From Chthonomonadales bacterium (lineage in GTDB: Bacteria > Armatimonadota > Chthonomonadetes > Chthonomonadales > CAJBBX01): a stretch of 64,000 nucleotides of DNA. Positions 4,488 to 29,322 of the stretch are shown here, in pieces. The stretch lies in assembly GCA_027459625.1 (NCBI GenBank), contig DAIDHP010000002.1, positions 124,001-188,000 of the forward strand. The letters run 5' to 3'. The notes beneath the pieces are model-generated. The model saw only the letters and a program-made list of their open reading frames with translations. It was not told the DNA's origin and ran no database searches. Each line of letters begins with the position of its first letter. Positions within the stretch are counted from its first letter, which is position 1. The position numbers and the translations under genes were made by a program.

Positions 4488-6239
4488 TTGACTTTGCCTA
4501 AATCGAAAGCATATAAGTTGGCGGTCATCGTTTTAGTGGCGTTGATGATCGTGTTGCGCGTTGTTGCGTTGAGATCGGATTCATTTGTTCGGCTGGATTG
4601 GAGCGCCGGACAGATGACGGATGAAGGTTTCTATATGCATAACGCGAGGAATGTGGTGTTGTTCGGGCATGCGAGAACGGATAGTTTCAACAGCATGTTG
4701 CTCTCTCCAGCTCTCAATTACTTGCAAATAGCCGTTTTTCGCATGTTCGGCGTGGGAAGCTTGCAGGATAGAATGATCTCTGTTGTCTGCAGCCTGCTTT
4801 CGCTTCTATTTTTTTGGCTGGCGATGAGAAGATTGTTTGATGCAAGGATCACATGGACCGCTGTGATTTTCCTAGGGCTGGATCACGTCAGCTTGCTGTT
4901 TAATAGAATGGCGTTGATGGATACTCCCGCCACCTTGCCTGCTGTGCTGGCTTTCTACCTGTTTGTACGGGTGATGGATATGCCGGCGAAGTCCATCGCA
5001 GCCAAAACGCAACTTTTTTTCTGCGGCTTCAGTCTCGGGTTTGTGATGATGATCCGGTCCATGTGCGCCTGGTTGCTACCCGCTCCTCTCATCGCCATTT
5101 TTTTCAAGAAGGAGATGAGAAAAAACACTCTGATAGGTTTGCTCGGGTTCTTTCTGGTAATGGCGGTCTGGGCGGTGTTTTGGTATTGGCCAAACCATGT
5201 GGTGATGGATCACATGATGCAGTATTATCGCAGCAATCAGCTTCAGCCTCATACGTGGAAACGTTTCGGCGCCAATTTATGGGTTGGTTTTTTCGGGGAT
5301 TTTCGAGGTATCACGCCTTATGTTTTCCGGCACACGCCCGTGATACTCACGCTTTCGTTGTTGGGGATTCTATTCTGGAAGCGAATCCTTGCGAATTTGA
5401 CGGGTAGGTTCAATCAGGAGGAGAATCACCGCGTAATTCTGATCTATTTCATCTCCTGGATCATAGGCGGGTGGGCGGTTTTTGTCATTGTTTGCTACTC
5501 TCCCGCAAGGTATTACATCCCGATATATCCCGCAATGGCGGGGCTGTCTTCCATAACGCTGTGGAATCTTGAGGCGGTGAAAAAAGCCGCTTTTAAACGC
5601 AATAGGGGTATGGCGGTATTGCGAGCGTCGGTGATGTGGTTTCTTGGTTACCATGTCATGGAGGCGCTGGTCCATCATGATAAGGTGCTGCCGCATTTGC
5701 CGACAATGCTGTTGCTTTACGGCATCCCGTCGTTGTTATCGATTTTAGGTTGGGTGGCTCCATTACCCGTCTCGGATTGGTTCGGTCGCTTGGATCCCAT
5801 GCGCCTTGCCAAATTCGGCTTCATCGTGTGGTTCTTGTTCAATGGGTACTGGCTGGGAGCCTGGGTGACGCATATTGGTTTTACGCAATATCACGCCAGT
5901 CGCTGGCTTGCCTCCCATTTGCCTCCCAACAGCGTACTGATAGGAGACATCGCACCGGGGATGTGCATGGATAATGATTTTCGCTGCGTACATGTGCAGG
6001 ACGGCTTGTGCAACTATCATTTTCCGGTCGAGCGATTCGCGGGGAACCCGCGTTTCATTGTGATCCTCGATGGGAGATGGAAGGAGAGATGGTGGGTGGA
6101 TAACTATCCCCATCTTGTCGACGCCGCGCATCTTTACAAAATGTTGCATGTGATGAAATGGAAAGTTGGAATCTACAGGGTTCCGAACAACTACATATCC
6201 GCAAAATACAAAAAAATGGTTGAATCAGCCAGTCAATAA
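4488..6239 (+). CDS. Membrane glycosyltransferase, ArnT/PMT-like (GT-C fold)
   Basis: A 583-residue polytopic membrane protein with roughly ten hydrophobic segments. An early periplasmic loop carries an acidic site (MTDEGFYMHNARN), as in ArnT/PMT-type transferases that use polyprenyl-phosphate sugar donors, where an Asp/Glu in the first loop is catalytic. A soluble C-terminal part follows the last membrane segment. The substrate cannot be told. It starts at TTG 4488, because the nearby ATG frames close at once, and it ends 15 bases before carB. It therefore sits inside the pyrimidine operon, where it has no obvious enzymatic role. Confidence 0.75.
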   Translation: MTLPKSKAYKLAVIVLVALMIVLRVVALRSDSFVRLDWSAGQMTDEGFYMHNARNVVLFGHARTDSFNSMLLSPALNYLQIAVFRMFGVGSLQDRMISVVCSLLSLLFFWLAMRRLFDARITWTAVIFLGLDHVSLLFNRMALMDTPATLPAVLAFYLFVRVMDMPAKSIAAKTQLFFCGFSLGFVMMIRSMCAWLLPAPLIAIFFKKEMRKNTLIGLLGFFLVMAVWAVFWYWPNHVVMDHMMQYYRSNQLQPHTWKRFGANLWVGFFGDFRGITPYVFRHTPVILTLSLLGILFWKRILANLTGRFNQEENHRVILIYFISWIIGGWAVFVIVCYSPARYYIPIYPAMAGLSSITLWNLEAVKKAAFKRNRGMAVLRASVMWFLGYHVMEALVHHDKVLPHLPTMLLLYGIPSLLSILGWVAPLPVSDWFGRLDPMRLAKFGFIVWFLFNGYWLGAWVTHIGFTQYHASRWLASHLPPNSVLIGDIAPGMCMDNDFRCVHVQDGLCNYHFPVERFAGNPRFIVILDGRWKERWWVDNYPHLVDAAHLYKMLHVMKWKVGIYRVPNNYISAKYKKMVESASQ

Positions 6240-6254
6240 AGCTTGGAGAACGAA

Positions 6255-7937
6255 GTGCCTAAAGATCCGAATATTAGGAAAGTGATGGTCATCGGTTCCG
6301 GACCGATTATAATAGGTCAGGCGGCTGAGTTCGATTACGCAGGAACTCAAGCGTGCACATCCCTCAGGGAGGAGGGGGTGCGGGTGGTGTTAATTAACTC
6401 CAATCCCGCCACGATCATGACGGATACGGAGATCGCCGATCGAGTGTACATAGAGCCGTTGAATGTGGAATTCGCCTCAAGGGTGATCGAGAGGGAAATG
6501 CCGGACGGTTTGCTCGCCACGTTGGGCGGACAGACCGGGTTGAATCTCGCCACCCAGTTGGCGGCGGAGGGTGTTCTGGAGAGATACAATGTGCGTTTGC
6601 TGGGAACGCCGTTAAAATCCATTCAGATGGCCGAGGATAGAGAGGAGTTCCGCTCTTTGATGCGTCGTATCGGCGAACCCGTGCCGGAAAGTTGGATTGT
6701 GCAGTCTGAAAACGAGTTGGCGGAGGTGTGCCACCAGACCATCTGGCCGCTCATCGTGCGCCCCGCATACACGCTGGGCGGCACAGGCGGCGGTATCGCC
6801 CAAAATCCCGCGGAGTTGATGGAGATTGGCAAGCGGGGTTTGAAACTCTCCATGCGCCATCAGGTGATGGTCGAGCGCTCCCTTCTTGGTTGGAAGGAGA
6901 TCGAATACGAGGTGATGCGTGATGCGAACAACACATGTATCACCGTGTGCAATATGGAGAACTTGGACCCCATGGGTGTGCACACCGGGGATTCCATTGT
7001 CGTGGCGCCCTCGCAAACTCTATCGGATAAGGAGTATCAGATGCTCCGTTCCGCCTCCCTCAATATCATTCGCAGTCTGGGAATCGAAGGGGGATGCAAC
7101 GTTCAGTTGGCGCTTGACCCCAATAGCTTCGATTACTTCGTCATTGAAGTCAATCCAAGGGTGTCCCGATCCTCCGCGTTAGCCTCGAAGGCGACGGGGT
7201 ATCCAATTGCGCGTGTCGCGAGCAAAATCGCCATTGGGATGCGTTTGGATGAGATACAAAACGCAGTAACGAAGAAAACATTGGCGTGTTTCGAGCCATC
7301 TTTGGACTACTGCGTGGTGAAAATTCCCAGATGGCCCTTCGATAAGTTCACCTTGGCGGATAGACGCATCACAACTCAGATGAAAGCGACGGGCGAAGTC
7401 ATGTCCATCGATAGAGCGTTCGAGCCGGCGTTAATGAAGGCGATTCGAAGTTTGGAAGTGAAAGCGTACGGTCTCTCCGCCAAAAAGGTCAACACCTATT
7501 CGGATGTGCAACTCGAAGAGGGAATCTCCACGCCAAATGATGAGCGGTTATTCGTCATAGCCGAAGCCTTTCGCAGGGGAATGATGGTGGAGGAGGTGCA
7601 TGCGCTCTCGAATATCGATCGCTGGTTCCTCGATAAGATACTTCGCCTGGTGCAGATGGAGACTCGATTGAAGGTTCATGGACGTGCGATCGCCTCGTTA
7701 GCCGAGACACTTGACGTGGACGCCCCTGAGGCTCAACTCCTCTCGGATGCCAAAAAACTGGGATTTTCGGATCGTCAGATCGCGGATTTCGTGGGGTTGC
7801 CGGAAAGGACAATCCGTTCTCTGCGCAAGGCGTTTCAAATCGTGCCCACCTATAAGTTGGTGGACACGTGCGCGGCTGAATTTGAGGCGGAGACCCCCTA
7901 TTACTACTCCTGCTATGACAAGGAGGATGAGAGGTGA
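6255..7937 (+). CDS. carB: Carbamoyl-phosphate synthase large subunit, N-terminal half
   Basis: Contains the first ATP-grasp (carboxyphosphate-forming) module and the oligomerisation domain of CarB. It opens with the usual [22 protein letters not shown] and stops after [12 protein letters not shown], which corresponds to the linker where one-piece CarB continues into the second ATP-grasp half. It has 560 residues. GTG 6255 (MPKDPNIRK) is preferred over TTG 6243 because GGAG (6245-6248) lies six bases upstream and the resulting N-terminus matches the family. The second half is a separate gene at 8791, with a methyltransferase in between. Split CarB proteins are known in some archaea and Aquifex. 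Confidence 0.93.
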
Positions 7938-28713: not shown

Positions 28714-28759
28714 AGGCACACTATCATCATTAACGGTCTTAGTTGCAACTTTGTTGCAA
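28714..28759 (-). promoter_or_regulatory. Promoter with Nur-like operator before the NRAMP-like gene
   Basis: The operator TTGCAA-CTTTG-TTGCAA occupies 28743-28759. On the minus strand its downstream half also serves as a -35 box (TTGCAA), with GATAGT as the -10 after 17 bp. A bound dimer would block polymerase. The 6-5-6 layout equals the published Nur box of Streptomyces (tTGCaa-N5-ttGCAA). Confidence 0.72.
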
Positions 28760-28796
28760 CAAGCGCGAAAAAAACAACGATGGATATTGCCATCGT

Positions 28797-29258
28797 TTAC
28801 TCTTTTCCGTTTTCCACCTGACAGTTGCGGCAAATCGCCGCTACCTCAATGCGCATCGATAGCACATCGTAACCTGTCTCTTTTCTTATTTCCGATTCCA
28901 ATTTCTCAAGCAGGCGGGAACGAAACTCGAGTATCTTACCGCATCTGACGCATCCCAAATGAATATGCCTTCTGTTTTTATCTCTGAGTTCATAGTAGTG
29001 CTCGTGTCCGCTCAGATGCAGAAGGTCCAACTCCTCGATCAACCCCATCTCCTTGAGCATGCTCAGGGTGCGGTAGACGGTGGTGCGATCCATCTTTTCG
29101 CCCCTCTGTTGCGCAAGGTTCAGGATGTCGCTCGGGTGGAGGTGAGTCTGCGAAGATTCGATCAAATCGATCAGGAAACGCCTCTGCTTTGTAAGGCGCA
29201 CTCCCATCTCGCCGATTTTATTCGCGAGGGTTGATTGTCGGGTAAGAGTGGATATCAA
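28797..29258 (-). CDS. Fur-family metalloregulator
   Basis: A winged-helix Fur protein of about 153 residues: LTKQRRFLIDLIESSQTHLHPSDILNLAQQRGEKMDRTTVYRTLSMLKEMGLIEE is the DNA-binding domain, with the recognition helix at RTTVYRTL. HEHYYELRDKNRRHIHLGCVRCGKILEF and the final ICRNCQV supply the structural CxxC pairs and the His-rich regulatory site. The frame is open to 29285, but that TTG lies within the operator and about at the predicted transcription start. A TTG at 29258 behind AAGAAGGAG is more likely; ATG 29207 is also possible. Confidence 0.88.
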   Translation of the reverse strand: MISTLTRQSTLANKIGEMGVRLTKQRRFLIDLIESSQTHLHPSDILNLAQQRGEKMDRTTVYRTLSMLKEMGLIEELDLLHLSGHEHYYELRDKNRRHIHLGCVRCGKILEFRSRLLEKLESEIRKETGYDVLSMRIEVAAICRNCQVENGKE

Positions 29259-29268
29259 AGGCTCCTTC

Positions 29269-29285
29269 TTGCAACATGATTGCAA
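29269..29285 (-). promoter_or_regulatory. Nur-like operator before the Fur-family gene
   Basis: TTGCAA (29269-29274), CATGA, TTGCAA (29280-29285): the same 6-5-6 arrangement as at 28743. It lies at about +1 to +18 of the fur transcript, pointing to autorepression. Confidence 0.72.
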
Positions 29286-29293
29286 CTGACAAT

Positions 29294-29322
29294 ACTATAT
29301 CACAAAAAATAGGTTTTGTCAA
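29294..29322 (-). promoter_or_regulatory. sigma-70 promoter of the Fur-family gene
   Basis: On the minus strand TTGACA (29322-29317) and TATAGT (29299-29294) are separated by 17 bp, placing the transcript start near 29287. Confidence 0.8.

Follow-up and report, generated by a model that had tools for sequence, protein, structure and literature searches.

We propose that two neighboring genes in the 64,000-nucleotide stretch of DNA analyzed here (the window), a Fur-family regulator and an NRAMP-fold metal transporter, form an iron-uptake cassette in which the Fur-family protein would serve as the cell's iron sensor. The regulator likely acts through a Nur-like operator to repress, in response to iron, both its own gene and an NRAMP that stands in for FeoB; iron is deduced as the metal mainly from the linkage of box and fur to FeoB and ferritin in relatives. 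The protein would work like an iron Fur, uses a Nur-like operator, and lacks the nickel-site residues of Nur; it is best filed as a Fur variant.

Architecture of the fur-NRAMP locus

A preliminary description of this DNA reported perfect 6-5-6 repeats ahead of an NRAMP-like gene and a Fur gene, and both are exact copies of TTGCAA-N5-TTGCAA (Table 1). The 17-mer at 28743 reads TTGCAACTTTGTTGCAA and that at 29269 reads TTGCAACATGATTGCAA. On the minus strand, box 1 is TTGCAACAAAGTTGCAA and matches the clade consensus, TTGCRACNNNGTYGCAA, perfectly; box 2 agrees with it at 13 of 14 positions. The likeness to Streptomyces Nur boxes drawn in the same description is also borne out, as both boxes fit the published consensus tTGCaa-N5-ttGCAA (PMC3919588).

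Table 1. Features of the fur-NRAMP locus, in window coordinates.
Feature	Position	Strand	Basis
NRAMP-fold divalent metal transporter, 399 aa	27388..28587	-	PF01566, 1.5e-53
Box 1, NRAMP operator (putative)	28743..28759	-	exact TTGCAA-N5-TTGCAA; upstream of NRAMP gene
Terminator-like hairpin and T run between fur and box 1	28776..28797	-
Fur-family regulator, 153 aa, TTG start	28797..29258	-	PF01475, 1.5e-27
Box 2, fur gene operator (putative)	29269..29285	-	exact; just 3' of fur -10
fur promoter, TTGACA, 17 nt, TATAGT	29294..29322	-	-10 and -35 sequence match

The repeats had also been placed on the core promoters of both genes, a placement borne out so far for fur. Its -35 (29322-29317) and -10 (29299-29294) elements match 11 of 12 consensus positions, and a gap of 8 nt separates the -10 from the box; no sigma-70 match was found at box 1, so core-promoter placement is established for the fur box alone. 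Since the fur promoter ends at 29294 and the box lies 8 bases on, a bound protein would cover the transcription start. Fur translation most likely begins at the TTG at 29258, behind an AAGGAG, rather than at the TTG at 29285 inside box 2. Box 1 lies 155 bp ahead of the NRAMP start codon; because a hairpin follows fur and the box sits behind it, the NRAMP gene is probably its own transcription unit, separate from fur. Divergent from fur is an ATP sulfurylase gene (PF01747; 29538-30695, plus strand).

An i.i.d. model predicts 0.26 exact sites per genome, and the 4.55 Mb genome contains four, including the window pair. Calculated from the residual rate of sites, two exact copies would fall within one 700-bp stretch by chance with a probability of about 5e-8. 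With up to two mismatches allowed, the window holds 7 sites against 3.8 expected; such relaxed matches are at chance level, and thus only the exact pair is special and carries weight. The genome scan suggested in the preliminary description did return two further exact sites, but one is inside an ORF (C13) and the other between rplI and dnaB (C22). Our regulon scan consisted of pattern searches: 17 one-mismatch sites and these two exact ones were placed, nearly all within ORFs, and no further iron gene with a convincing box was found among them. No exact or near-exact (12/14) box was found near the genome's other three NRAMP paralogs. An intergenic ATGCAA-N5-TTGCAA lies 5' of a TIM-barrel, xylose-isomerase-like gene (G000:C3:32527, L091:2028; G001:C38, L086). 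Its arms are unchanged and its spacer altered in G001, yet it is a weak lead only, as the whole surrounding region is well conserved.

Conservation of the operator

The order fur then NRAMP is kept in G001, a member of the same genus (Fur 91%), and in G012, from another family (Fur 61%, NRAMP 76%). Both boxes are exact in both genomes, with differing spacers. The intergenic sequence of G012 is mostly diverged, but the box arms are unchanged; the fur -10 is kept there and the -35 in part. The pattern TTGCAA-N5-TTGCAA, taken from the window alone, also occurs exactly in one acidobacterial MAG.

The operator accompanies the regulator across genera. Boxes at orthologous fur genes give the consensus TTGCRAC-N3-GTYGCAA, drifting to TGCGAC-N3-GTCGCA in relatives. 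When the 140-165 bp upstream of 16 orthologous fur genes were scored against the clade consensus, every one held a box agreeing at no fewer than 11 of the 14 positions, and 14 of the 16 held one agreeing at 12 or more. Some 194 kb of other sequence yielded only two sites at 12/14 or better, both of them the FeoB boxes of G006, a contrast that is partly built in because the consensus was derived from these same fur sites. Sites with at most one mismatch number 1-6 per genome in the ten genomes searched. Autoregulation by the Fur-family protein and its control of the neighboring NRAMP-like transporter via the two boxes, as first suggested for this DNA, are very probable.

Operator and regulator may also vary together. 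The residue before the TVYRT motif (position 59) is Thr or Val with TGCAAC boxes and Ala with mainly TGCGAC boxes; it is a possible operator specificity switch, judged from few independent events. Each of four genomes (G231-G234; L147-L150, L153-L158, L161-L166) encodes this Fur type as two or three paralogs. TTGCRAC boxes are not recognizable at most of these paralogs, whose operators may have changed again. Literature searches on TTGCAA-N5-TTGCAA-type motifs returned nothing relevant.

Linkage to FeoB and ferritin in relatives

In three species of one sister genus (G007, G009, G011), FeoB adjoins fur with the box between them, and sites with at most one mismatch flank fur and this next gene. 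The FeoB assignment is based on Pfam: all three genomes match FeoB_C, and the G011 copy matches FeoB_N at 1e-53. Another sister genus (G006) shows the order ferritin, two boxes, FeoB (two ORFs), box, fur, with the ferritin identified at 1.5e-24 (PF00210). Control of iron uptake genes is thus indicated, in relatives, by operator and linkage only. In genomes lacking this Fur, no boxes were found around the FeoB_C stretch, where loci often stop short of the FeoB promoter.

Other genes lie near the box elsewhere. A one-mismatch box (G009:C82:36935-36951; L182:2436) precedes the gene of a hybrid-cluster (prismane) protein by about 175 bp. A methyltransferase-domain protein (MPGHWVLA...) follows a TGCGAC-N3-GTCGCA box in G006 and G005 (L024:8750-9640, L180:2675-3679) and is a possible further regulon member. 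In Acidobacteria and G240, the gene after the fur-adjacent box encodes an outer-membrane-like protein (FVTYDHHLEEPGNLE) that is conserved (L062-L066 around 5500-6410; L159:5348-6442, minus strand); the G240 protein contains a heavy-metal-binding domain (PF19335). This box-linked gene indicates no clear metal and counts against the iron reading.

FeoB is absent where the cassette occurs. The window's genome and its 30 nearest relatives include 24 good assemblies; FeoB_C is present in 21 of these and was not found in exactly three, the window's genome (G000), G001, and G012, which are draft MAGs of 92-97% completeness. The same three are the only carriers of this NRAMP among the 24. Their FeoB_N matches are weak (about 1e-12) and fall in GTPase reading frames some 450 aa long, several of which hold a second match, as other GTPases would give. 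The simple chance of this pattern is 5e-4, a figure that makes the evidence look stronger than it is, since the lineages are related or have the cassette in common. With the cassette shared by two families, FeoB may have been lost only once.

The Fur-family regulator

The regulator, the only Fur-family gene product of the genome, belongs to the Fur superfamily (PF01475 at 96.6 bits, cut-off 23.1). Its three-His, two-Glu site is intact: H39, E90, H98, H100, and E111, all invariant in the core clade, align with H48, E98, H105, H107, and E118 of Campylobacter jejuni Fur. The closest solved relatives include Nur (3eyy), which scores about the same as Campylobacter Fur. The Nur nickel site, which we take to be H70, H72, and H126 (the histidines themselves are confirmed in the 3eyy sequence), is replaced by E76, D78, and R136, and Nur H86 is likewise not conserved. 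The PerR aspartates are also missing, with E111 at the D104 position and D85 aligning with H87 or the E90 region. A loop common to the clade, HLxGxxHYYE, in which H81 is invariant and so is H87 within the core set, is missing from the aligned Fur, Nur, and PerR sequences.

The classical Fur box is a TGATAAT-type inverted repeat. The operators here are instead TGCRAC-N3-GTYGCA, which lowers the case for an ordinary Fur but not for a protein that works like Fur.

The transporter and its paralogs

NRAMP superfamily membership is supported by the Pfam match, and the nearest solved structure is EleNRMT (7qia, 6e-37); in the tree, its branch lies next to the magnesium-type NRMTs. It is not a canonical MntH: TM1 reads DAAS rather than DPGN, TM6 reads MPF rather than MPH, and the NCBIfam MntH model gives 89 bits, below its cut-off of 430. 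NRMTs are defined by replacement of the binding-site Met by Ala, together with Asn-to-Gly and Ala-to-Thr changes, and the Met disfavors alkaline-earth ions (PMC8806188). In their TM6 metal site the transporter and its two orthologs retain both Ala and Met, and at the TM1 Asn position they have Ser. The other relatives compared have NRMT-type sites, except the canonical paralog and DraNramp.

The genome encodes four NRAMP-fold genes. One is a canonical MntH-type (DPGN/MPH) NRAMP without a box. Another is an NRMT-type paralog downstream of an M-box (Mg2+) riboswitch (G000:C61, L008:3125-3299, minus strand; 114.5 bits). An NRMT-like paralog (G000:C40, L007:1381-2682, plus strand) has Thr at the binding-site Met position (GTTITPWG). 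The genome's NRAMP paralogs thus appear to run under different metal switches. As the canonical NRAMP would cover Mn and the M-box NRMT would cover Mg, we infer Fe2+ to be the cargo left over for the boxed transporter.

Proposed mechanism and alternative readings

Under iron sufficiency, Fe2+ would occupy the three-His, two-Glu site, and the Fur dimer would bind TTGCRAC-N3-GTYGCAA. The fur box is predicted to span the transcription start (roughly +1 to +20), where binding would repress fur; binding at box 1 would silence the NRAMP gene. A drop in iron would derepress both genes, and the NRAMP would then import Fe2+, taking the role that FeoB, preceded by a box of this type, has in sister genera.

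Mn2+ is a common NRAMP cargo and can also occupy Fur-type sites. The regulator could be a Mn-responsive, Mur-like Fur controlling the NRAMP as a Mn2+ importer, much as rhizobial Mur, a Fur-family repressor, regulates mntH of Rhizobium leguminosarum in response to Mn2+ (PMC5575495). We regard this as unlikely: in sister genera the same type of regulator and operator accompanies FeoB and lies next to ferritin, the separate canonical NRAMP lacks a box, and precisely the cassette genomes lack FeoB among the good assemblies.

The preliminary description favored a nickel- or related-metal-responsive Fur protein. Agreement of the boxes with the Nur consensus (PMC3919588) and the closeness of 3eyy would suit a Nur-type regulator outside Actinobacteria controlling a nickel-transporting NRAMP. 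This is improbable given the replaced nickel-site histidines, the linkage of the same operator type to FeoB and once to ferritin in close relatives, and the drift of the operator to TGCGAC. A Sod_Ni search found nothing but carries no weight, its controls being negative as well. What stands of the earlier claim on the metal is the related metal, if read as iron from the FeoB/ferritin linkage in relatives.

Very improbable is that the transporter is an NRMT importing Mg2+, with the Fur-type protein reporting another signal; EleNRMT as best structural relative and the tree position speak for it, but the transporter does not have the Met-to-Ala change characteristic of NRMTs and the same genome already has an M-box-controlled NRMT. 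That the boxes are chance repeats agrees with the background level of relaxed matches, yet it is already excluded by conservation, as an exact pair so rare per genome recurs in three genomes with diverged spacers and boxes also stand at orthologs.

Returning to the iron-responsive Fur variant, a wider proposal can be advanced, tentatively and a little short of probable: a separate Fur subclade, spanning the window's phylum and Acidobacteria, that has shifted to a TGCRAC-N3-GTYGCA operator with residue 59 setting the fourth base of the half-site, and an NRAMP branch between NRAMPs and NRMTs that takes FeoB's place as a dedicated Fe2+ importer. The phylum may be Armatimonadota-like, judging by numerous DUF1559 pilin-type genes and by the relatives. 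Fur-family regulators and their metals are often named from operators; a Nur-type box with an iron-type gene set, as here, means that the box is no safe label for the metal. The NRAMP branch, beside the NRMTs, keeps the transition-metal Met and apparently replaces FeoB. As a small, defined cassette, the pair makes metal selectivity and operator co-evolution testable.

Comparison with known systems

Control of an NRAMP gene by a Fur-family protein is already known. In the Mur-mntH system of R. leguminosarum, a Fur-family repressor likewise acts on an NRAMP gene (PMC5575495), but Mur responds to Mn2+, whereas FeoB/ferritin linkage points to iron here. E. coli mntH is under dual Fur/MntR control, as cited in a passage of PMC5575495. 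With C. jejuni Fur (4ets/6d57) the regulator shares the fold, two CxxC pairs, and the H/E/H/H/E ligands of the regulatory site; H104, D106, and H142 of the additional site in C. jejuni are R97, I99, and M135 here. Like iron-responsive Fur, this type is linked to FeoB, here seen in relatives, but it differs in its TGCRAC-N3-GTYGCA operator and clade-specific HLxGxxHYYE loop. Nur of Streptomyces coelicolor (3eyy) has a similar sequence score and the same operator consensus (PMC3919588), but the window Fur is without the nickel-site histidines and has iron-type gene linkage.

Among transporters, EleNRMT, an NRAMP-related magnesium transporter, is the closest solved relative and sits on a neighboring branch, but the window transporter has the TM6 Met and Ala of transition-metal NRAMPs and a TM1 Ser rather than Gly or Asn. 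DraNramp, a canonical NRAMP/MntH, has the same metal-site Ala and Met in TM6 and the same TM1 Asp, and differs in having DPGN and MPH where the window transporter has DAAS and MPF, with a lower sequence score.
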